The translations under genes were made by a program, and so were the position numbers. A DNA stretch of 64,000 nucleotides, taken from an uncultured Deferribacteraceae bacterium (lineage in GTDB: Bacteria > Chrysiogenota > Deferribacteres > Deferribacterales > Mucispirillaceae). Within the stretch, counting starts at the first letter, position 1. Every line of letters begins with the position of its first letter. The stretch covers positions 62,001-126,000 of the forward strand of contig CAMQYS010000003.1 of NCBI GenBank assembly GCA_947039395.1. Direction: 5' to 3'. The notes under the pieces are model-generated. The model ran no database searches. It worked only from the letters and a program-made list of their open reading frames with translations, and was not told where the DNA came from. Below are positions 7,013 to 52,656 of this stretch, piece by piece.

Positions 7013-8881
7013 TTACGCTTTTTTAAACTTCTCTATAGCGATCTCTAACATTGATATAGCATTATGTGTCATACCTGAAATACGTAATGCTTGTCCTAAA
7101 TTTTCAGGAGATATTTTTTTTAACTTCTCTACTTGTTCTAGTCTTAATCCAGATACCTTACCGTAATCTATATCTTGTGGAATACGTATAAACTCTAATT
7201 TATTCGACTTAGCAATCTCTTGCTCTTCTTTCTTGATATAACCTTCATAAAATATCTCTATCCATATCCGCTCTTTAAGTTGAGATGATAGAGTATCAAC
7301 TAAACTCATCTCTTCTAAAATTGAGTAGCTAGCTTTAGGACGTTTAAGAAAATCATAAGCAGTAATACTCTCACCAAGCATTATATTATATTTAGATATT
7401 ATATCAACTATATTCTTATCTGTGATCCTTATTTTTGTATTCCTTAACCTTTCAATTGTATTACTCACTACAGTACAATCTTCCAAATAACGCCTATATC
7501 TTTTATCTGATATTAATCCAAAATATTTACCATAATTTAATAACCTAACTTCAGCATTATCTTCTCTTAATCTCATTCTATATTCTGCTCTTGATGAAAA
7601 AATACGATAAGGCTCATCAACGCCTTTAGTTGTTAAATCATCTGTCATTACACCTATATAACTTTCATCTCTTTTAAGTATAAACGGTTCTTTGCCCTCT
7701 ATTGATAAAGTAGCATTGATAGCCGCCATAAAACCTTGTACTGCTGCTTCTTCATACCCTGATGTACCATTAATCTGTCCTGCAAAATATAATCCATCTA
7801 TTAACTTCGTTTCATAACTCTTTTTCAAAATTGTTGGTTGATATGCTATATACTCAATCGCATATGCAGGGCGTATAAACTCTGCTCTCTCTAATCCTAT
7901 TATCGTTCTATACGCTGTAAGTTGTGCATCTATTGGTAGAGATGATGAAAAACCATTAATATATATCTCATTACTATCTATCCCTTCTTCCTCTAACACA
8001 ATTAAATGTCGCTCTCTATCTGGAAACTTAGATACTTTATCCTCCATAGATGGACAATATCTTGGTCCTAAAGCTTTATCCTTATTATTAAAATATAATG
8101 ATCTATATGTATTATCACGAACAACCTTATGAGTTTTTTCAGATGTATATGTTATAAAACAATCTATCTTATCATCATCCAATATATCTGTCTCAAACGA
8201 AAACCCTCTTCTTATACTTTCTTTTTTATATGCTTCTACTTTATTAAAATCAATACTTCTTTTATCAACCCTTGCAGGTGTTCCTGTTTTTAATCGTATA
8301 GGTTCAAACCCTAATGAATTTAACGAGCTAACTAAATGTGTAGACGCAATATCATTCATTCTACCGCCTTCATAACTCTTATCTCCAACAAATATCTTTC
8401 CATTCAAAAATGTTCCTGTTGTAATGATAATCTTTTTAGCACAGTACTCCTCATCTGATAATGTCTTTATACCGTATACACCTCTATCATTAACTAATAT
8501 ATCTGAAACAATAGCTTGTTTTATACTTAAATTATCTGTACTAAATAACGTTTTCTTCATACGTTCAGAATATTTATATTTATCTGCTTGAGCTCTTGAA
8601 CTTCTTGCAGCAACACCTTTACTTTGGTTCAATAACTGAAACTGTATAAAGGTTGCATCTATATTTCTTCCCATTTCGCCACCTAAAGCATCTAGGTCTT
8701 TAACTAATGATCCTTTGGCTAATCCGCCTATCGCTGGATTACAGCTCATATACGCTATCTTATCAAGCGATATTGTTATAAGCATCGTGCTAAATCCACG
8801 TCTAGCAGATGCAAGCGCTGCTTCACAACCTGCATGCCCTGCACCTATTACTATAACATCATATACATCTTTATTTAGCAT
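7013..8881 (-). CDS. mnmG: tRNA uridine-5-carboxymethylaminomethyl modification enzyme MnmG, copy 1
   Basis: MnmG (GidA) works with MnmE to build the (carboxymethyl)aminomethyl group on wobble U34 of tRNAs, using FAD, NADH, GTP and methylene-THF. This copy is 622 aa, the usual length. It has the FAD motif GAGHAGCEAALASA, the conserved Cys in YMSCNPAIGG and in GPRYCPSMEDK, the KTGTPAR segment, AGQINGTSGYEEAAVQG and a canonical C-terminal helical domain ending with LGQALRISGMTHNAIS. AAGGAAT precedes the ATG. It is followed by rsmG after 18 nt and preceded, after 197 nt, by a second mnmG. Because all signature residues are kept, this is the better candidate for the housekeeping enzyme. Confidence 0.93.
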   Translation of the reverse strand: MLNKDVYDVIVIGAGHAGCEAALASARRGFSTMLITISLDKIAYMSCNPAIGGLAKGSLVKDLDALGGEMGRNIDATFIQFQLLNQSKGVAARSSRAQADKYKYSERMKKTLFSTDNLSIKQAIVSDILVNDRGVYGIKTLSDEEYCAKKIIITTGTFLNGKIFVGDKSYEGGRMNDIASTHLVSSLNSLGFEPIRLKTGTPARVDKRSIDFNKVEAYKKESIRRGFSFETDILDDDKIDCFITYTSEKTHKVVRDNTYRSLYFNNKDKALGPRYCPSMEDKVSKFPDRERHLIVLEEEGIDSNEIYINGFSSSLPIDAQLTAYRTIIGLERAEFIRPAYAIEYIAYQPTILKKSYETKLIDGLYFAGQINGTSGYEEAAVQGFMAAINATLSIEGKEPFILKRDESYIGVMTDDLTTKGVDEPYRIFSSRAEYRMRLREDNAEVRLLNYGKYFGLISDKRYRRYLEDCTVVSNTIERLRNTKIRITDKNIVDIISKYNIMLGESITAYDFLKRPKASYSILEEMSLVDTLSSQLKERIWIEIFYEGYIKKEEQEIAKSNKLEFIRIPQDIDYGKVSGLRLEQVEKLKKISPENLGQALRISGMTHNAISMLEIAIEKFKKA

Positions 8882-9078: not shown

Positions 9079-10905
9079 CTAAATATCGGTATGTTTTACT
9101 ATCTTAGATATCTCTATTGCGATAACCGATATCGCAGCTGGAGAGATTCCAGGTATTTTTCTGATCTCTTTTAAACTCTTAGGTTTAAGTAAGGCGATCT
9201 TCTCTGCATACTCTAACCTTAACCCTGGAATAGATTTATAACTGATTGAATCAGGTACTAATATATCATCATATATATCTGCTTTTTCAACCTCTTTCTG
9301 TTCTTTATCTATATATCCTTTATACTTAATTTCTACCTCTAGCTGGTCTATTAACTTCTCAGAAAGATTACTCTCGCTTATACCACTTTCTTTGATCATA
9401 TCTCTATATGATACTTCTGGTCTTTTTAATAGATCGTGATACGATATATTTTTATCTTTATCCTTTAATTTATTCAATCTAGCTATTTCTAAATCTATTA
9501 GCTCTCTATCATTTAAATATCTGTCATACCTTTCTTTTCTAATAAGTCCTAATTTATATCCGTATCCTAATAACCTTGCTTCAGCTCTATCTTCTCTTAA
9601 TAGTAACCGATACTCTCCTCTTGATGTAAACATTCTATACGGTTCATCAACACCTTTACTCATTATATCATCTCCTAATACTCCGATATAACTTTCATCT
9701 CTACCTAATATTAATGGATCTTTACTATCTATCGACAATACAGCGTTAACTCCTGCCATAAAACCTTGTACAGCTGCCTCTTCATATCCCGATGTTCCAT
9801 TTAACTGTCCTGCAAGATATAACCCCTTTACCTTCTTTGATTGATATGAGTAATCTAACTCTTTTGGATTATAAACGTTATACTCTATCGCATATGCTGG
9901 TCTTGTAAATATAGCATTCTCTAACCCTTTAATTGATCTATAAGCTGCTACTTGTATATCATATGGAAGAGATGTTGACATACCATTAATATGGCACTCA
10001 AACATGTCTAGACTTTCTGGCTCTATAACAATATTATGTGATGTTTTCTCTGGAAAGTTTTTTATTTTATCTTCAATTGATGGACAATATCTTGGACCCT
10101 TAACTGCCATCTCTCCACTATATAGTTGAGAAGTTTTTAAATTATCTGCAACTATTCTACAAGTTTCATCGTTAGTGTATGTTAGATAACAATCTATATT
10201 CTTTAAGTTATTCTTAATACTATCTGGAGAAAACGATATATTTCCAAAATCAGATGATAATACCTCAAGCCCACTAATATCTATAGAATCAAATCTTATT
10301 CTTGCAGGTGTATCAGTTTTCATCTTAAAATGATTTAATCCTAGCTTACTTAAAGACTCTCCTAGTGCAACACTTGCAGGTTCATACATTCTTCCTGCTG
10401 ACATCTTCATGTTTCCGATATAGATATGTCCATCTATAAATGTACCTGCTGTAACAACTATCTTTTTACAGAGGTATATCTCGCCAGATGCAACACTTAC
10501 AGACTCTACTTCATTATTATTAATATTAATATCTGTTACAATACCCTGTTTTAGATCTAAGTTAGGAGTATCAAATATAGTAGTACGCATTCTATCTTTA
10601 TAAAGATATTTATCTGCTTGAGCTCTAGTTGCCCTTACAGCCACTCCTTTACTTCTATTTAATATTCTAAACTGTATCCCTGTTGCATCTATATTTCTTC
10701 CCATTTCGCCACCTAAGGCATCCATATCTTTAACTAAGTTTCCCTTACCGATACCGCCTATCGCTGGATTACAAGGCATTAATGCCACATTTTCAATTGA
10801 TATTGTGAGCAATAAGGTTTCTGCTCCCATACGTGCAGATGCTAATGCTGCTTCACAACCTGCATGTCCTGCACCTATAACTATTACATCATACTTCTTA
10901 AACAT
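9079..10905 (-). CDS. mnmG: MnmG paralogue (copy 2), diverged
   Basis: Full-length second MnmG, 608 aa, with the FAD motif GAGHAGCEAALASARMG, Cys in LMPCNPAIGG and GPRYCPSIEDK, and AGQLNGTSGYEEAAVQG, so the core is intact. Differences from copy 1 and the family are a Gly to Asp change in the KTGTPxR motif (here KTDTPAR), a shorter C-terminal linker, and a weakened C-terminal domain (LKEIRKIPGISPAAIS instead of LGQAxRI). A ribosome-binding site AGAGG lies about 7 nt upstream. It sits between the parS/mnmE region and copy 1. Two MnmG genes are known in some bacteria; whether this one modifies the same tRNAs, binds a different partner, or has lost activity cannot be read from the sequence. Confidence 0.88.
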   Translation of the reverse strand: MFKKYDVIVIGAGHAGCEAALASARMGAETLLLTISIENVALMPCNPAIGGIGKGNLVKDMDALGGEMGRNIDATGIQFRILNRSKGVAVRATRAQADKYLYKDRMRTTIFDTPNLDLKQGIVTDININNNEVESVSVASGEIYLCKKIVVTAGTFIDGHIYIGNMKMSAGRMYEPASVALGESLSKLGLNHFKMKTDTPARIRFDSIDISGLEVLSSDFGNISFSPDSIKNNLKNIDCYLTYTNDETCRIVADNLKTSQLYSGEMAVKGPRYCPSIEDKIKNFPEKTSHNIVIEPESLDMFECHINGMSTSLPYDIQVAAYRSIKGLENAIFTRPAYAIEYNVYNPKELDYSYQSKKVKGLYLAGQLNGTSGYEEAAVQGFMAGVNAVLSIDSKDPLILGRDESYIGVLGDDIMSKGVDEPYRMFTSRGEYRLLLREDRAEARLLGYGYKLGLIRKERYDRYLNDRELIDLEIARLNKLKDKDKNISYHDLLKRPEVSYRDMIKESGISESNLSEKLIDQLEVEIKYKGYIDKEQKEVEKADIYDDILVPDSISYKSIPGLRLEYAEKIALLKPKSLKEIRKIPGISPAAISVIAIEISKIVKHTDI

Positions 10906-16337: not shown

Positions 16338-18749
<2,412 letters not shown>

Positions 18750-18867
18750 CTAAATACTTATCTAAATATATTTTATTACATATCTTGGTATTATAGTAGA
18801 TTTTATAAAATTTATCATCTCTTTTTTATTAAAAAACAAAATATTAGAAAAAATCCCTTTACTATCA

Positions 18868-20996: not shown

Positions 20997-21332
20997 TAAA
21001 ACTATCCTCATGCGATAAATTTCTATTTATATTTATATTTTGTTGTTATTATAGGACAACTTATAACATTGTACAAGTAAATTAATCTCTTATTTTATAA
21101 TAACTTTTATAACTCATAACAACATTTAAATAATACTCAAATCTACTAACAACTTCTAGCAGTGTTATAATATATCATCGTCTAAAGTGGAGAAAATAAT
21201 TATATAAATATAAATTTATTATTTTTTGTATTATATAATAGTTCAATTGTGTATAACAGCTAAATCTAAATATTAATAACAGTTAAAACTCACCTAACTA
21301 TATCGTAACAAACAACTTTTATTGTGGAAAAC
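20997..21332. other. Candidate replication origin (oriC), dnaN-dnaA intergenic region
   Basis: A 336-bp non-coding, extremely AT-rich stretch between dnaA and dnaN, the commonest oriC position. It holds one TTATNCACA-type DnaA box on the minus strand (TTATACACA at 21248-21256), a one-mismatch box (TTTTCCACA, minus strand, 21323-21331), and a G+C-free A/T tract at about 21197-21240 that could serve as unwinding element. It also carries the dnaN promoter and leader. Few boxes match consensus, so the evidence is position plus composition. The 5' flank of dnaA (22683-22874) is the main alternative. Confidence 0.5.
21248..21256 (-). promoter_or_regulatory. DnaA box TTATACACA
   Basis: Matches the 9-mer consensus TTATNCACA on the minus strand inside the candidate origin. 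Confidence 0.5.
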
Positions 21333-33121: not shown

Positions 33122-33753
33122 AGATCAAGGTAGTTAGTTTTATCGTTAATAAGTTCAAGATATAAAGGTATCATACTCCATGCATCAACTGCGGCATATT
33201 GTATCTGTTTATCGGTTAAAGTTTTTTTAGCCCAATTAGTTATTTGAGAACTTTTAAGTAGTTTTTTATTTAGAAACCTTGCAACAAGTGACCTTGCATT
33301 ACTTTTTTTAAGCCCTTTAGACTTTGCCATAATAGATAGATCGGAGAAATTTTTAGGTTCAATTTTTCTAGATAACTCTTTAAGTTTTTTAATATCAGTT
33401 GTAAGTCCTAAACCGATTTTTAATATAGTGGTGCTATTAAGTATATCAATTAATCCAGTATGAATATTACTTTTTTTAACTCTAAATAGATATACTTTAT
33501 CAGTCGTTGCAATTTGAATTAAAGATATAGGATAAGTTTGTCCTTTAATAAATGCAGGTCTAGATTCTGTATCAAACCCGATTCTTTCAGCTTGTTTTAT
33601 CTCTTCAATATGCTTATCAATATCTGGATCATCTATGTTTAGTAGATATATCTTTCCATCAAATAAAAGTGGTTCAAGTTCATTTATGATATCATTAGAT
33701 ATATCTTCTAAGTATCTCAGATTATTTTCAGAAGCAGTAGAGCTTTCTGTCAT
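33118..33753 (-). CDS. 3'-5' exonuclease, RNase D/WRN-like DEDD family
   Basis: 211 aa with the DnaQ-like fold used by RNase D and WRN exonuclease. Motif I is [10 protein letters not shown], motif II is around GLTTDIKKL, and motif III is [13 protein letters not shown], giving the four acidic residues of the DEDDy type. There is no HRDC domain, so it is the short form. It overlaps csrA by the ATGA at 33750-33753 and the formyltransferase-like gene by ATGA at 33118-33121. Its place inside a flagellar/glycan operon is unusual, and its substrate (RNA or DNA) is unknown. Confidence 0.87.
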
Positions 33754-33983
33754 GGTTTATTCCTTTCATTAAATAGCTGAAATAATGATATAACATTATC
33801 TTTAGATATCGCACGAATGTTTTCATTTTTAATAGCTTCATATATCTCTTTTCTATGAACAGAGATATCTCTTGGAGCATTAATTCCCAGTTTAACAGTT
33901 TTTCCAACAACATCAACAACAATGATCTCAATTTCATCACCTATCATTATGCTTTCGTTATTCTTTCTAGATAGTATTAACAT
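33750..33983 (-). CDS. csrA: Carbon storage regulator CsrA
   Basis: 77-aa CsrA homologue: [20 protein letters not shown], then [18 protein letters not shown]. CsrA dimers bind GGA motifs in RNA leaders and block or stabilise mRNAs; in bacteria with FliW it controls flagellin translation. ATG 33983 was chosen because MLILSRK is the conserved start and GGAG lies 8 nt upstream. It follows fliW after 11 nt, and its last bases overlap the exonuclease start. Confidence 0.96.
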
Positions 33984-33994
33984 AACCAATACTC

Positions 33995-34432
33995 CTATTT
34001 AGCAGGAAAGAGAGATTTCTTTATTGGGAAAACATCGTTATCAAGTATTATCTGTTTAGCTATTTTTTTATCTAAGTTAATGATAAGTGGAGCACGTAAA
34101 TTTGCAGTAGATTTAGTTGGATCCTCAGGGATAACAACTATAGAAAAGATTTTCATATTTTCTATATCATCAACACTTAATACTTTCATTTCACGTTTAG
34201 GTATAGTTGGTTCATAGTCCGTGAAAAATTTTGTAGCCTCTACAAGAATAAAACAGATATCATTATTTTCTACTGATTGAAACCATATAAATGGATACGA
34301 TGATTCATTAGAAATTAATAAAAACTCATTTAATTCATTAAAACCTAAGAGTGGGGAACAAAGAGTTACCACGTCACTCTCGTTATACTCTATCTCTCCC
34401 AACTTTGCAGAGTTTATCTTTAGGATAGACAT
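33995..34432 (-). CDS. fliW: Flagellar assembly factor FliW
   Basis: FliW, about 145 aa, binds flagellin and CsrA in a partner switch that couples flagellin synthesis to secretion. Family marks are [21 protein letters not shown] and [20 protein letters not shown] 34432 follows GAGGTG; a GTG at 34438 would also be possible. It is directly upstream of csrA, the widely conserved fliW-csrA pair, and downstream of flgL. Confidence 0.93.
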
Positions 34433-34501
34433 ACACACCTCATAAAAAATTGATAAATTAATACATTCTACTACTCTATAATATATATATAAAAAACTAG
34501 A

Positions 34502-46253: not shown

Positions 46254-47741
46254 CTAATCGATAAATATAAATGCCACAATTAGGAATAAAGGTATAAGTA
46301 TCGCTATCGACCAGACCATATATCCAAAGAATGAAGGCATCTTAACACCTTGATTTTCAGCGATTGATCTAACCATAAAGTTTGGAGCATTACCGATATA
46401 AGTGTTAGCACCCATAAATACTGCACCCATACTTATTGCAAGAAGAGTAGATGATTTCTCTGTCATAAGCATCTGTATATTAGCAGGATTTGAAACATCT
46501 CCTGCAGCTGTAGTAAAGAAAACTAAGTAAGTTGGAGCGTTATCAAGGAAACTTGAAAGTATACCTGTTATCCAAAAATACATTAAGTTAACTGGATTAC
46601 CATTTTCATCACTAATCATTGATACAACACTAGCTAAGCCACCACTTTCTCCTGCTTGTAATATTTTAAGTGCAGGGATCATAGTGATAAATATACCGAA
46701 GAATAATTTACCAACTTCAAGAATAGGTTCCCAGTTAAATCCGTTTAATTCCCTACTCTCTTTTCTAGTAAGTTTAAGAGATAGCCAAGCAAGGATTAAT
46801 AGTAAGATTAATCTAGTCAACTCATTTAAATACATAGGCACATGATATATAGAGAAAGCGATAGGAGCATTATCAAAAATAGATGCATCTATCGGTGCAG
46901 CTGGGTTTGGTTTCCATACACCACTTATAACAACTGCAAAAATAACTCCAGCTATTAGAAGAAAGTTAATAGAACCTTCAAGTCCAAGTTTTTCATCATC
47001 GCTATTTTCAGGAGCAGGTTTTCCTTCTTTTTTATATAAAATTGTGTCCATAATAAAATATATTATAAATAATATTGTAAGAGTAAATAACATCGGTAGG
47101 AACATATGTTCTAATGTCCAGAAGAAATCTACACCTTTAAGAAAACCAAGAAATAGTGGAGGATCTCCAACAGGTGTTAGTGAACCACCGATATTTGCAA
47201 CAGTGAATATAAAGAATATAACTGTATGTACTTTATATTTACGATGAGCATTAGCTCTAAGTAACGGTCTAATAAGAAGCATAGCAGCACCAGTTGTTCC
47301 CATCCAACTTGCCAATATTGCACCTATTAGAAGTATTAAAGTATTTACAATAGGCGATCCAGATAGAGATCCTTTTAATCTAATTCCACCAGATATAACA
47401 AACAGTGAGAATAATAGTATTAGAAACGGAACATAATCTATAAGAAGAATATGTATAACTTCGTAAGCGGTTATCGAAACACCGTACACAGCAATAAACG
47501 GAACGATAAACATAACTGCCCATGCAACCGATATTTTACCGTAGTTATGATGCCAAAATTTAGCAAAAAGTATAGGCCCTAAAGCGATAGAGAGAAGCAT
47601 GCCAGTAAATGGTATGATCCATAAGCTTGATAAATCTGCTCCACTAAGATACCATGCATCGCCTACTGCTGAGGCTGCAAAAGATATCTTAGGAATAAGT
47701 GAAAGCATAGATATAAGTATTAGAAATTTAAGTTTACGCAA
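46254..47741 (-). CDS. nhaD: NhaD-type sodium:proton antiporter
   Basis: 495 aa with about 12 transmembrane helices, of the ArsB/NhaD (IT) superfamily. It starts at TTG 47741 with AGGAGGAT 6 nt upstream and has a signal-like first helix (LKFLILISMLSLIPKISFA). Family marks are NIGGSLTPVGDPPLFLGFL, GNAPNFMVRSIAENQGVKMP and ILSSFLDNAPTYLVFF. NhaD exchanges Na+ for H+ at the inner membrane and helps keep cytoplasmic pH and sodium balanced. It stands alone; two hairpins lie downstream. Confidence 0.88.
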   Translation of the reverse strand: MRKLKFLILISMLSLIPKISFAASAVGDAWYLSGADLSSLWIIPFTGMLLSIALGPILFAKFWHHNYGKISVAWAVMFIVPFIAVYGVSITAYEVIHILLIDYVPFLILLFSLFVISGGIRLKGSLSGSPIVNTLILLIGAILASWMGTTGAAMLLIRPLLRANAHRKYKVHTVIFFIFTVANIGGSLTPVGDPPLFLGFLKGVDFFWTLEHMFLPMLFTLTILFIIYFIMDTILYKKEGKPAPENSDDEKLGLEGSINFLLIAGVIFAVVISGVWKPNPAAPIDASIFDNAPIAFSIYHVPMYLNELTRLILLLILAWLSLKLTRKESRELNGFNWEPILEVGKLFFGIFITMIPALKILQAGESGGLASVVSMISDENGNPVNLMYFWITGILSSFLDNAPTYLVFFTTAAGDVSNPANIQMLMTEKSSTLLAISMGAVFMGANTYIGNAPNFMVRSIAENQGVKMPSFFGYMVWSIAILIPLFLIVAFIFID

Positions 47742-48001
47742 AATATCCTCCTGAGATAGTTTTATGTTATTATATATAGAATCAGTTAAACAAAATAAAT
47801 AACAGTTTAACCTGTTACTCTATTTTATTTAATTTGTAACTAAATTACTTCATAAGTAGATTTAACTTTAAGATATCAATATATTAAGATGTATATAGAA
47901 TTAAAGGTGCAGTATATATACACTGACATATTACTTTAAGAGATCTTTATCACCATAACATCATATTCGGCTAAAATAGAAATAAATTAATAGTTAATCA
48001 A

Positions 48002-48784
48002 TTAAATGATTGAGTATTTTTCTTTTTGTTTAACAACAGTTGTTGCTACATTAAAATTATTGAGACAGCTTTCTGCATATTTCTGCACTAAGTTGTAATC
48101 GTTACAATTTTCAGAAACATGCACAAGAACTGCTTCTTTCAATTTACTTATACTTAACTTACATATTAAGTTATGAGCCTCTTGATTTGATAGGTGTCCA
48201 AAACTTGATGCAATTCTTGTTTTCAAAAAATTAGGATATCTAGAGTTTTTCAATAATTCTGGATCGTAGTTTGACTCAAGTATAATTATTTCTGTATCTT
48301 CAACAGACTTATGCACATAATCAGATATAACTCCAACGTCAGTAAGATAGGTTATATCTACTTCATCAAACTTAAATCTATATCCAAAAGGTTCAACGGC
48401 GTCATGCTTTATTCTAAAAGGTTTAGCCGAGAAATCATTAAAAGTTACTTCAACATCAGGTTCTAATTTATAGAAAAGATCTTCATCAAACCCATTTTTT
48501 ATAAGTCTTTCAACTGTTTTAGTTGAGGCATATATTTTTGGAGAGTATCTACTTAAAAACGGTTTCATACCAGCGATATGATCGTTATGTTCATGAGTTA
48601 TGAACAGTATAATTTCATCAATATCAATATGAGGTAGATTACTATTATCAATTGTTTCTGCGATATATGGCATAATTTGATTAAGTGGTAAGCCCATATC
48701 AACAAATATACATTTTTTACCTAATCTAAAAACAGAAGAATTACCAGAGCTACCCGATGAGATTATATCGTATTTTAAATTCAT
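48002..48784 (-). CDS. Metallo-beta-lactamase fold hydrolase (YycJ-like)
   Basis: 260 aa from ATG 48784 (MNLKYDIISSGSSGNSSVF). The first motif, HEHNDHIAGMKPF, is the HxHxDH zinc site, and other ligands lie in LTDVGVISD and LVHVSENCNDY. The GSSGNS segment is typical of the YycJ/WalJ type of cytoplasmic phosphodiesterase-like MBL proteins, many acting on nucleic acids. A TTG at 48820 would add a Lys-Ile repeat coded by an ATAAAG tandem run and is disfavoured. It is a single gene. Confidence 0.88.
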   Translation of the reverse strand: MNLKYDIISSGSSGNSSVFRLGKKCIFVDMGLPLNQIMPYIAETIDNSNLPHIDIDEIILFITHEHNDHIAGMKPFLSRYSPKIYASTKTVERLIKNGFDEDLFYKLEPDVEVTFNDFSAKPFRIKHDAVEPFGYRFKFDEVDITYLTDVGVISDYVHKSVEDTEIIILESNYDPELLKNSRYPNFLKTRIASSFGHLSNQEAHNLICKLSISKLKEAVLVHVSENCNDYNLVQKYAESCLNNFNVATTVVKQKEKYSII

Positions 48785-48790
48785 ATTTTT

Positions 48791-48808
48791 TATCTTTATC
48801 TTTATCTT
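48791..48808. repeat. Hexanucleotide tandem repeat upstream of the MBL gene
   Basis: Three copies of TATCTT (ATAAAG on the coding strand) lie in the leader, starting 7 bp upstream of the ATG. Translated in frame they would code Lys-Ile repeats. Such repeats can change copy number. Confidence 0.6.
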
Positions 48809-49070
48809 TATTTTTAACAACTTATTATATCAAAACAGTAATTATTAGATATGTAACAATCGTTAAGATCAACGAGTAGTATCAACATTATAAGTTAAAT
48901 AGTCAAGTGATAATAATCACAAAATGCAAGATTGACTTTAAATTAAGTTAAGGTATATAACTATTTTGAGGAACATTTTCTGTATTATTTTGATTTTAAG
49001 ATATACGGATAGGCATATAAATTACTATTAAGAAAGTCTTTAGATAAGTACTTAATACGTCAATCTTTCC

Positions 49071-49099
49071 TTGACATATAGATTGTTTTTTGAGAAAAT
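49071..49099 (+). promoter_or_regulatory. Sigma-70 promoter of the candidate RNA
   Basis: -35 TTGACA at 49071-49076, 17-bp spacer, -10 GAAAAT at 49094-49099 (4 of 6 matches to TATAAT). Start of transcription would be near 49106. Confidence 0.6.
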
Positions 49100-49105
49100 C
49101 ATAGT

Positions 49106-49383
49106 AAGCAACTATTTATAGTTACTCTGTTACTGCTATAGAGGTATGTGATGTGCACCATACGCTTCTATGATATGGTAGTGTTTTGGCGACTATCTAC
49201 TGTATCGGTTTTTATTTGCTATTCTTTAGACTATTTTTAAGGATAACTAACGGGTAGTAGTGTTAAGGATAATTTTTTGCATTTTAGATGCAACACTAAC
49301 CACTAGGGTAGGCTTTTACACGAATAGCAATTATAGGTAATAAATATCGTAAGATAAAAACTTAGCAGTTTCTTTTATTTTTT
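49106..49383 (+). ncRNA. Candidate structured small RNA of unknown class
   Basis: About 278 nt of non-coding sequence with local G+C higher than its surroundings and several helices. Helix A: ATAGA (49138-49142)/TCTAT (49167-49171) plus GTATG (49144-49148)/CATAC (49159-49163). Helix B: GGTAGT (49177-49182)/ACTATC (49192-49197), closed by GATA/TATC. Helix C: TTGCTATTC (49216-49224)/GAATAGCAA (49322-49330), closing a domain. Inside it, helix D/E: TAGTG/CACTA and TTGCAT/ATGCAA. A promoter lies upstream and a terminator at the end. It does not show the marks of tmRNA, SRP RNA, RNase P or known riboswitches. Two AAGGATAA repeats (49239 and 49265) could bind CsrA. Confidence 0.55.
49358..49383 (+). 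terminator. Intrinsic terminator of the candidate RNA
   Basis: Short hairpin (AAACT/AGTTT, loop TAGC, 49358-49371) followed by a T-rich run CTTTTATTTTTT. The stem is weak, but the U-tract is long. Confidence 0.5.
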
Positions 49384-49432
49384 AACAATTTAATCTTATT
49401 AATAGCAAAACATTTGCGTTGAGGGTAATTAA

Positions 49433-49786
49433 TTGAATAGTGTAAACAAATATTATGGGGGTTCTGTTACAAATAGAATCGCTCAAGATATACAAAACTT
49501 ACCAAATAAAGATAAAAATTTAAGTACTACGAACGGTGAGCGTATAGCTCCTGATAGTACAAGTAAATTAGCTATTACTACTCCTGTAGATAAGGCGATA
49601 GAAAGACTTTATGATAAGTATGATACATCAGGCTTTTATAATAAAATAAGATATGATAAAGATTTGAATATATATATAAAATATAAGATAGATAGATCTA
49701 ATAACCAATCAGTATCACAATTTCCAACCGAACAACAGGTAACTCTTATGCAGGTTAAGAAAAACATACTTAATATATACCTTTAA
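49433..49786 (+). CDS. Small FlaG-like protein (tentative)
   Basis: 117 aa. Its C-terminal 65 residues (KIRYDKDLNIYIKYKIDRSN, then SQFPTEQQVTLMQVKKNI) follow the FlaG/YvyC pattern of an amphipathic strand, 'I-D-R-x-T', 'IPxE' and a terminal helix. FlaG influences filament length or flagellin secretion in some bacteria. The start is TTG 49433 with GAGGG upstream. The N-terminal half is polar and looks unstructured. It lies right after the candidate RNA terminator and is a single gene. Alternatives include any small secreted or surface protein. Confidence 0.45.
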   Translation: MNSVNKYYGGSVTNRIAQDIQNLPNKDKNLSTTNGERIAPDSTSKLAITTPVDKAIERLYDKYDTSGFYNKIRYDKDLNIYIKYKIDRSNNQSVSQFPTEQQVTLMQVKKNILNIYL

Positions 49787-49909: not shown

Positions 49910-52141
49910 TCACTCCGTTGACTCACTATTATTTTTAATTTTTCTATTAAAACAGATAAGTTTAATTGATCTTAACATTAAAATAAGTATAAAAATAACT
50001 ATAAAATAATCTCCAGTAGAACCTATTGTGCAACCAAAATATGCAGCTATGGGAGATTTCATATCGGGTTCGCTCACAGCATTATCTCCATATGCGTCAG
50101 AGAATTCATTTTGTGCCTCTTCAAATGTTACTCCACTTCCAGCTAATTCTACACGTTGAATGATCCTACTATTATTTTGATTAATTATATCAAATGCGTT
50201 ACTATAGTCCATATAATCATTAGGTGTAAATGTAAATGCTAAATTACAACTTTCTCCTTGTTGAAGCTTAGTAGAGAGGCTACAAGTGGTATTTGTTTCA
50301 TCAAGTGAAAAAGCTTCATTTTCAGTAAATGTATGATTAAATATTAAGCTTCCACCTCCAGCATTTCTAACATTCACTTTAACTAGGTTAGATGTTTTAG
50401 CGATTTCAGTTTTGTTAAATGTAATATTATTATTATGTACAACTAATTTTTGAGGAGAGGTATCATTAAATATAGTTGTATCAGCTCTAGTAGAATATCT
50501 TACAATGTTTACATTTTTATCATTTTTGTTAGGATATGATAGTACAACATATTCTGGTACAAGCCCTCTTCCACCATATGCAAAGCCTCTATCAAACTGT
50601 ACAAATGGAGTGTATACAGAATTTTTAATACCTCTAATTCTATAATATCTATATGTATATTTAGTTGCGTTATTAACTTTATCGTAGTAGTTATTAACTC
50701 CTCTAGGAACTCTATCTAGTAGCTCAAAATCATCAGAGTGATTAGATTTAGCCCATATTTCAGTTTGAGCATTTTTATCAATATTCCAGCTTAATATAAC
50801 AGAGGCGTTTGTTTTATTAACTTTATCAACTTTAAAATTAGATGGTGCAGAATAAAGTGAATTTGTATTAAATGTTAATAATTTATTTAGATCAAGAACA
50901 CCGCCAGCCATAGAATGTAGTTGTTGGTCGTCAGTTTTAGCTACATTTGCAGAGTTAACAATCATTTGTTCAATATTAGCAGGCGTGAGATAAGGTTTTA
51001 AAGATATAAGTAAAGCAATTGATCCAGCCACAAAAGGTGTTGCCATAGAAGTCCCAGATTTAAAACTATATGAACTATAATTGCTAGATTGATTACTATT
51101 TAAAACCGTACTAATAATTCCACTTCCTGGTGCAAAAATATGTACAGATGTTTTACCGTATGATGAGGCAGCAGAGCCATTATTACCCCAGATAGATCTT
51201 TTAGGATAACTGTTTGACGCACCAACAGAGATCAATCCTCTTAAAGGGTATGCAGCAGGATATGATGGTTGCCAATCTGTATTGCTACTATCATTACCAG
51301 CTGCAGCTATAACAACAATTCCGTGATCAATAGCTTTTTTAAAAGCATCATATTCAGCTTGTGATGCTTTGTTAATATCTCCACCTAACGAGGCGTTAAT
51401 AACTCTAGCACCTCTATATATCGCATAATCTACCGCTTGAATAATTTTAGATATATTACCTGTACCACCTTGATCTAAAGCTTTAGCAGAGAGCAGTTGT
51501 ACATTCCAAGCAACTCCAGTAGATCCAATACCGTTATCCCCTTCTGCACCGATAATGCCACCAACGTGTGTTCCATGTCCGTTATTATCGTAACCTAGAT
51601 CTACACCAGATTTTTGAGTAATCGTATTTATTCCGTTATTGTATATATTAAATCTAAGGTCTTCGTGTCCTAAATCTACTCCTGTATCAATAATTGCAAC
51701 AGTAACATCTGGTGCGGTAGAGATTATATCCCATGCTTTTTCTGCATTTATACCACTCTCTTGTTTAAATTGATAATTTGTTGAAGATGAGTTAGTTCTA
51801 TAGTAGTAATCATTAGGTATAGTATCCATTGTTTTAACAGTATAATCTGGGTGTATATACTCTATTTGATCATTTGATTTTAATCTATCAATTACTTTAT
51901 CTGCATTTTGAACATTGATAAGAAACGTATTAGTTGTTAAATATATAGGCATATTGGTATGATCAGTTGTGGTGATAATATTATTTATCTCCAACATTGA
52001 TGCCATTGCAGATACACTGTTTTTATATTTTACAATTATTTGTTCGTTGTTATCACTACTATTTTGAGCATATATATTTTGGGTTACTACCACATTTATC
52101 GTTAATATTATCAGTATCATAATTACTGTTACTTTTTTCAT
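49910..52141 (-). CDS. Secreted subtilisin-like serine protease (S8) with C-terminal membrane anchor
   Basis: 743 aa from ATG 52141 (MKKVTVIMILIILTINVV, signal peptide; AGGTG upstream). A propeptide is followed by the S8 catalytic domain with Asp in AIIDTGVDLGHED, His in NGHGTHVGGIIG, oxyanion Asn in AAAGND and Ser in SGTSMATPFVAG. After it come a fibronectin-like part and an ASPM-SPD2-hydin-like beta domain (NLAFTFTPND). The tail has Cys, one hydrophobic helix (FIVIFILILML) and a basic cluster, like a C-terminal sorting signal. The enzyme should act outside the cell or on the surface. It is a single gene; the substrate is unknown. Confidence 0.92.
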   Translation of the reverse strand: MKKVTVIMILIILTINVVVTQNIYAQNSSDNNEQIIVKYKNSVSAMASMLEINNIITTTDHTNMPIYLTTNTFLINVQNADKVIDRLKSNDQIEYIHPDYTVKTMDTIPNDYYYRTNSSSTNYQFKQESGINAEKAWDIISTAPDVTVAIIDTGVDLGHEDLRFNIYNNGINTITQKSGVDLGYDNNGHGTHVGGIIGAEGDNGIGSTGVAWNVQLLSAKALDQGGTGNISKIIQAVDYAIYRGARVINASLGGDINKASQAEYDAFKKAIDHGIVVIAAAGNDSSNTDWQPSYPAAYPLRGLISVGASNSYPKRSIWGNNGSAASSYGKTSVHIFAPGSGIISTVLNSNQSSNYSSYSFKSGTSMATPFVAGSIALLISLKPYLTPANIEQMIVNSANVAKTDDQQLHSMAGGVLDLNKLLTFNTNSLYSAPSNFKVDKVNKTNASVILSWNIDKNAQTEIWAKSNHSDDFELLDRVPRGVNNYYDKVNNATKYTYRYYRIRGIKNSVYTPFVQFDRGFAYGGRGLVPEYVVLSYPNKNDKNVNIVRYSTRADTTIFNDTSPQKLVVHNNNITFNKTEIAKTSNLVKVNVRNAGGGSLIFNHTFTENEAFSLDETNTTCSLSTKLQQGESCNLAFTFTPNDYMDYSNAFDIINQNNSRIIQRVELAGSGVTFEEAQNEFSDAYGDNAVSEPDMKSPIAAYFGCTIGSTGDYFIVIFILILMLRSIKLICFNRKIKNNSESTE

Positions 52142-52656
52142 AAAGCACCTTTTGTCTAAACTAATCAACAAATTGTTGGTTAGTAGATCAATCTAATTAA
52201 ATAGAAAACTTGTTGTTTTCATCACATAATTAATTAAGATGATTTTATGAAGTTGTTTTTAGTAAGTAGATGTTTTAGTGATAAATTGGCATGAGGTATT
52301 CTGCTTGAGTAAGGCGATTATATGCCTTACCACGATAAAGTGTATTATCAATTTTTAAGGATAGTTTTGAGATACTATCACACCTATATAATTTAATAAA
52401 AAATCATATAATTAAAGTCCACTATTTAAAACCTTTTAAAACCTTTTTAAAGCTAAATATACTAAACAAATCTATATTAATTTACTATCCAATCTGCATA
52501 TCAAACCATAGTTTCTTGATATATGATAAATAGTAAAACTTAATCATCGTAACTAATAATATGGATCATAAAGCAATTTTATATATCAACAATAAAAAAA
52601 ATATGGTAAATAAGATTTTGGTATTAGTTAATAGATAGATAAGGTGGTATGCGAAG
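52142..52656. other. Non-coding region upstream of tgt with a hairpin
   Basis: 515 bp between the divergent protease and tgt genes. It holds a perfect hairpin at 52309-52330 (GTAAGGC/GCCTTAC, 8-nt loop) inside an outer TGATAA/TTATCA pair (near 52279 and 52347). A short direct repeat (AAAACCTTTT, twice in about 20 bp) lies near 52430. No gene is seen. Confidence 0.4.

Follow-up and report, generated by a model that had tools for sequence, protein, structure and literature searches.

A lineage-specific structured RNA element preceding a flaG-like gene in uncultured Deferribacteraceae

Some orphan structured leaders of the size considered here have turned out to be new regulatory classes. To our knowledge, few RNA elements have been described for the phylum Deferribacterota. 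In C. jejuni, the flaG leader is bound by CsrA (PMC4894983). Here we describe an element of the plus strand (49071–49383) that lies between a metallo-beta-lactamase-fold gene and a FlaG-like gene in a stretch of 64,000 nucleotides (the window) from an uncultured member of the Deferribacteraceae. As judged by comparison of the sequences, we consider it a real, lineage-specific structured RNA element that is absent from Rfam and that would act either as a structured leader or as a small RNA (sRNA). It offers a defined candidate for which coordinates, four homologs and covariance models are available, and its genome contains a csrA–fliW flagellar region; the range of the element is one genus.

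The longest internal open reading frame of the element encodes 30 amino acids, and the lengths of interspecies insertions and deletions are not in threes. We thus regard it as non-coding, in agreement with the preliminary description. Its G+C content is about 0.33, compared with about 0.22 in the intergenic DNA upstream. The protein encoded downstream matched Pfam FlaG with E = 0.016, below the curated cut-off, and shared 60–66% identity with its congener counterparts. On the other side of the element, a tandem TTTATC-type repeat (48787–48815) occupies the 5′ end of the metallo-beta-lactamase-fold gene, where an upstream TTG start would give KIKIKIKIK; since the congeners have stops at this repeat, the gene probably starts at an internal ATG. 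The coordinates of all features are collected in Table 1.

Table 1. Features of the RNA element and of the genes discussed with it (positions in the window)
Feature	Position	Strand	Remarks
csrA	33752–33983	minus	within window
fliW	33995–34438	minus	within window
Metallo-beta-lactamase-fold gene	48002–48820	minus	5′ neighbour of the RNA element
Promoter	49071–49099	plus	10/12 consensus with TG; hexamers invariant in four species
−35 TTGACA	49071–49076	plus	followed by 17-nt spacer and extended −10
Extended −10 TG-A-GAAAAT	49094–49099	plus	upstream TG present
P0, 5′ hairpin	49106–49127	plus	starts at inferred transcription start; pair probability 1.0
P1, 5′ strand ACUGCUA	49132–49138	plus	closing stem; partner 49363–49369; 7 Watson–Crick pairs, invariant
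P2 hairpin, 12 bp	49139–49170 (49139–49150/49159–49170)	plus	invariant apical loop AUGUGCAC; consensus fold
P3 hairpin	49172–49206 (49172–49181/49197–49206)	plus	10 pairs retained in 4/4 species
P4, 11 bp	49207–49217/49352–49362	plus	pair probability 0.99–1.0; runs into P5
P5	49218–49224/49322–49328	plus	consensus fold; pair probability 0.31–0.52
P6	49229–49259	plus	inner helix, consensus fold
AAGGATAA, copy 1	49239–49246	plus	ACGGAAAA or ATGGAAAA in congeners
AAGGATAA, copy 2	49265–49272	plus	AAGGATAA or AGGGATAA in congeners
P7	49277–49293	plus	inner helix, consensus fold
P8	49295–49313	plus	inner helix, consensus fold
P9	49336–49348	plus	inner helix, consensus fold
P1, 3′ strand UAGCAGU	49363–49369	plus	pairs with 49132–49138
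U-tract	49370–49383	plus	may be a P1-dependent terminator; differs in length and sequence among species, U-richness kept
Translation-initiation hairpin	49387–49437	plus	CAAUU/AAUUG masks start codon; inner GCAAA-ACA-UUUGC; holds SD GAGGG
FlaG-like gene	49433–49786	plus	117 aa, TTG start; presumed controlled gene

Elsewhere in the window, two adjacent mnmG/gidA-like genes lie on the same strand (7013–8881 and 9079–10905); compared with congener copies, they are locally about 68–71% alike at the DNA level. Non-coding DNA between the gyrB-like and recF-like genes (18741–18867) is unusually conserved (97% congener identity), the dnaN–dnaA intergenic region (21012–21332; 84% conserved) is a candidate replication origin, and a stretch just 5′ of an NhaD-like antiporter gene (47725–47800, minus strand) shows 92–96% congener identity. 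A subtilase gene (49910–52171) encodes a C-terminal transmembrane segment and basic tail that resemble a surface-sorting signal.

An Rfam search of the window locus with gathering and permissive filters, followed up to E = 10, returned no family, riboswitches and SRP RNA included, and no match was obtained up to E = 1 at the three congener loci. This covariance-model comparison bears out the preliminary description, which had seen no standard signatures of tmRNA, SRP RNA, RNase P or common riboswitches. The 6S RNA model (RF00013) matched neither the window nor the congener loci, the RNase P model (RF00010) did not match the element, and neither the tmRNA model (RF00023) nor a tRNA-like domain matched it, with no tmRNA found by ARAGORN in the window. 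The corresponding RNAs of the same genome were located at G000:C59 (6S RNA, 60.3 bits), G000:C56 (RNase P RNA, 249.8 bits) and G000:C1 (tmRNA, 150.2 bits). Because all three sit elsewhere, a misplaced housekeeping RNA was rejected.

Three congener MAGs of uncultured Deferribacteraceae served as relatives, so that the genus set comprised four species (G000–G003). Whole-genome BLASTN showed the element to be single-copy and syntenic in each of them. It is linked to the flaG-like gene in the same order and on the same strand in all four, within a surrounding 40 kb that is likewise syntenic across the genus. BLASTN and covariance models of the two halves of the element (R1 and R2) gave no convincing match outside the genus when applied to the family or order: scores within the genus were 172–188 bits (R1) and 113–121 bits (R2), and matches elsewhere reached about 24 bits at most. 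The out-of-genus R1 matches that we inspected were largely inside open reading frames or not beside a FlaG-like gene. A scan of 84,980 species genomes with a 17-base core yielded model-supported matches in the three congeners only, and we found no clear counterpart of either the RNA or the flaG-like gene outside the genus. Those FlaG genes of the sister genus that we inspected were beside flagellin genes or elsewhere, without this leader. A potential paralogue at G000:C24 (E = 0.009) was an unconvincing AT-rich intergenic stretch, and a phage or plasmid origin was dismissed, the sole match being an AT-rich stretch of 47 nt.

Within the locus, identity to G001 and G002 was 62/64% in the upstream flank (48821–49040), 48/45% at 49040–49070, 86/88% in the RNA body (49106–49383), 92/96% in the spacer 49384–49432, the highest of the regions, and 70/72% in the flaG coding sequence. 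The conserved block thus begins at the promoter and extends without interruption into the TTG with which the FlaG-like gene starts. The end at 49383 assumed in the preliminary description has to be abandoned, since the strongest conservation is found in the 49 nt that follow. Conservation as such is not unique to this locus, because other intergenic stretches of the window are conserved too; its length is unusual.

Promoter-like sites are about as frequent here as expected (10 found, 9.5 expected), so that a single match of the 10/12 type is not rare. Both hexamers and their spacing are constant in all four species, however, while the sequence of the 17-nt spacer drifts, and for this reason we consider the promoter, which had been recognized from its −35/−10 elements, to be credible. 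No sigma-70-like site was found between the RNA and the gene (49384–49432), nor did a comparison by eye match this segment to the TAAAG...TCGACGAA element that lies 5′ of one flagellin group. The conservation of this segment could reflect an unrecognized promoter of the flaG-like gene.

Folding of the window sequence alone gave a structure mildly better than chance (z −1.5 for the whole 279-nt fold). The domain closed by P1 (49132–49369) folded better than dinucleotide shuffles in all four species (z −2.5, −3.0, −4.0 and −3.4), with weaker values for the reverse strand (z −1.7 to −3.0). In the four-species consensus, P0 to P4 had pair probabilities of 0.99–1.0, and the four helices P1 (7 bp), P2 (12 bp), P3 (10 bp) and P4 (11 bp) that had been proposed at the outset were recovered. 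They are predicted to meet at a four-way junction that is nearly perfect, neighbouring helices being separated by no more than one unpaired base. The sequence of P0 drifts while its pairing is mostly kept (UA, UG or CG at one pair), and in P2 a variable upper stem, with two pairs changed on both sides, carries an invariant apical loop. The GUGCAC core of this loop is a self-complementary palindrome, and dimerization through it is therefore conceivable. Covariation among the four sequences was limited to two pairs in which both partners had changed, a number that 125 of 500 shuffles also reached. Of all cells, 97.7% were paired, and overall 85–125 of 500 shuffles did as well. The predicted structure is thus supported by fold energy and selection, with covariation too sparse in four sequences to prove it. 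Taken with purifying selection across four species, the invariant promoter, the lack of an Rfam match and the location of the housekeeping RNAs at other loci, the fold scores support the earlier view that the RNA is structured, belongs to an unknown class and has its own promoter.

At the 3′ end, the terminator claimed previously stands in part: the U-tract is present, but a search for a local hairpin before it found none, and the sole preceding stem is the long-range P1 (ACUGCUA/UAGCAGU), whose 3′ strand directly continues from P4. Termination at the U-tract is possible. In the hairpin that follows, the start codon is paired in all four species (unpaired probability 0.12 or less) and the SD in part. 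Since the stability of this hairpin does not exceed that of shuffles (z −0.2 to −0.8), its role is suggested by conservation.

The preliminary description had also pointed to two identical AAGGATAA sequences and to csrA in the same window, and both observations were confirmed. All four species have ANGGA at both sites, which are separated by about 26 nt; the N varies. The functions proposed for the repeat fared less well. AAGGATAA is SD-like rather than anti-SD, and its first copy is not conserved; pairing of the 5′ arm with the SD, by which the 5′ end of the RNA might act as an anti-SD, was predicted in the window species only. CsrA binding gained no support either, given the loss of the first AAGGATAA copy in the congeners and a motif count (2 observed, 0.78 expected, P 0.18) that does not exceed chance. 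The GGA sites lie about 150–180 nt upstream of the SD GAGGG, do not overlap it and fall in no clear small hairpin loop, so that the element lacks the arrangement of a CsrA-controlled leader. A CsrA sponge of the CsrB/RsmZ type, with many GGA motifs in hairpin loops, was rejected in view of only two to three ANGGA at chance level. Altogether, the sequence of the element lends little support to an involvement of CsrA.

The flagellin leaders of the genus contain a hairpin displaying AAGGA, together with GGA at the SD. Leader L166 (G000:C3:131453), just past the window, carries GGGAAGGATTCCC, and its congener L171 has GGGAAGGACTCCC. Such a leader appears to be a canonical-looking candidate target of CsrA, conserved in the genus, with sites far clearer than those of the RNA described here.

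We favour, at about even probability, a lineage-specific structured 5′ leader of approximately 327 nt that would control the flaG-like gene in cis, possibly with premature termination. This reading is preferred because sequence comparison shows a single promoter and a continuous conserved block from the −35 to the start codon, because the same downstream gene follows on the same strand in 4/4 species, and because the start codon is predicted to be masked. The absence of a clear counterpart of either RNA or gene outside the genus, the fold z-scores, the consensus pair probabilities of P0 to P4 and the C. jejuni flaG leader as a precedent also speak for it. The transcript is predicted to fold into the P0 hairpin and then into the compact P1-closed domain joining P2, P3 and P4, followed by the U-tract and a second hairpin that would hide the SD and start codon. 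Output of FlaG-like protein might then be set by the fraction of read-through at the U-tract, by opening of the start-codon hairpin, or by both, the signal being either folding of the domain itself or a protein or ligand that binds it. Transcripts ending at the U-tract would leave an RNA of about 278 nt as a stable by-product. No conserved switch pairing was found in the leader; a 9-bp switch helix (49215–49223/49401–49409) was discarded (P 0.12, cost 6–11 kcal/mol).

The closing stem and U-tract fit a free-standing sRNA equally well and keep this alternative in play. Such an RNA, of about 265–278 nt, would extend from near 49106 to the U-tract and act in trans, either through base pairing or by binding a protein, and the downstream gene would have its own unrecognized promoter; we regard it as a serious contender, though somewhat improbable. 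It would account for the sigma-70-type promoter, for a P1 that joins both ends of the domain and directly precedes a U-tract that stays U-rich as its sequence drifts, and for the better-than-shuffled fold of the domain in all four species. It is harder to reconcile with 49 nt beyond the U-tract that are more conserved than the RNA itself, with the missing local terminator hairpin and with the same gene always downstream.

An RNA that titrates CsrA, or a leader under its control, would tie the flaG-like gene to the CsrA–FliW circuit through binding of a CsrA dimer to ANGGA. The presence of csrA and fliW in the window, the persistence of two sites about 26 nt apart and the C. jejuni precedent speak in its favour, but with chance-level motif numbers, sites remote from the SD and outside clear hairpin loops, and much clearer sites in the flagellin leaders of the genus, we consider it very unlikely. 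Equally little weight is given to a conserved regulatory DNA region in which the fold is incidental to AT-rich sequence. Conservation of other intergenic stretches, the non-significant covariation in four sequences and the z of −1.5 for the window sequence agree with it, whereas unbroken conservation over about 330 nt is long for a promoter region, and the z-scores, which lie between −2.5 and −4.0 in the four species and are weaker on the reverse strand, speak against it. At the other extreme, the cis-acting leader might be a large regulatory RNA of a new class: its four-way junction would sense a ligand or protein, dimers might form through the invariant GUGCAC loop of P2, and the gene under its control would be a flagellar-type one of gut-type Deferribacterota. 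This extension of the preferred reading is unlikely.

Several known systems share traits with the element. Like the CsrA-bound flaG and flaA leaders of C. jejuni (PMC4894983), it is a putative structured leader that precedes a flaG-type gene, and csrA and fliW are present in its genome, but it is probably much longer, and its GGA motifs are neither at the SD nor in clear loops. With metabolite riboswitches and attenuator leaders it has in common a compact multi-helix domain closed by a single stem, a U-tract, a masked start and one downstream gene; it differs from them in its lack of an Rfam riboswitch match and of a recognizable conserved switching helix, in its non-metabolic gene and in its restriction to one genus. 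6S RNA (RF00013) is likewise long, has a promoter of its own and is closed by a stem, yet the element is without an RF00013 match and the 6S RNA of this genome lies at its own locus. Compared with the ornate large RNAs OLE, ROOL and GOLLD (PMC12286853), the element is smaller and has no sequence or model match. It resembles them as a large structured RNA of unassigned role, whose apical GUGCAC palindrome could, as a guess at oligomerization, allow loop–loop dimers.
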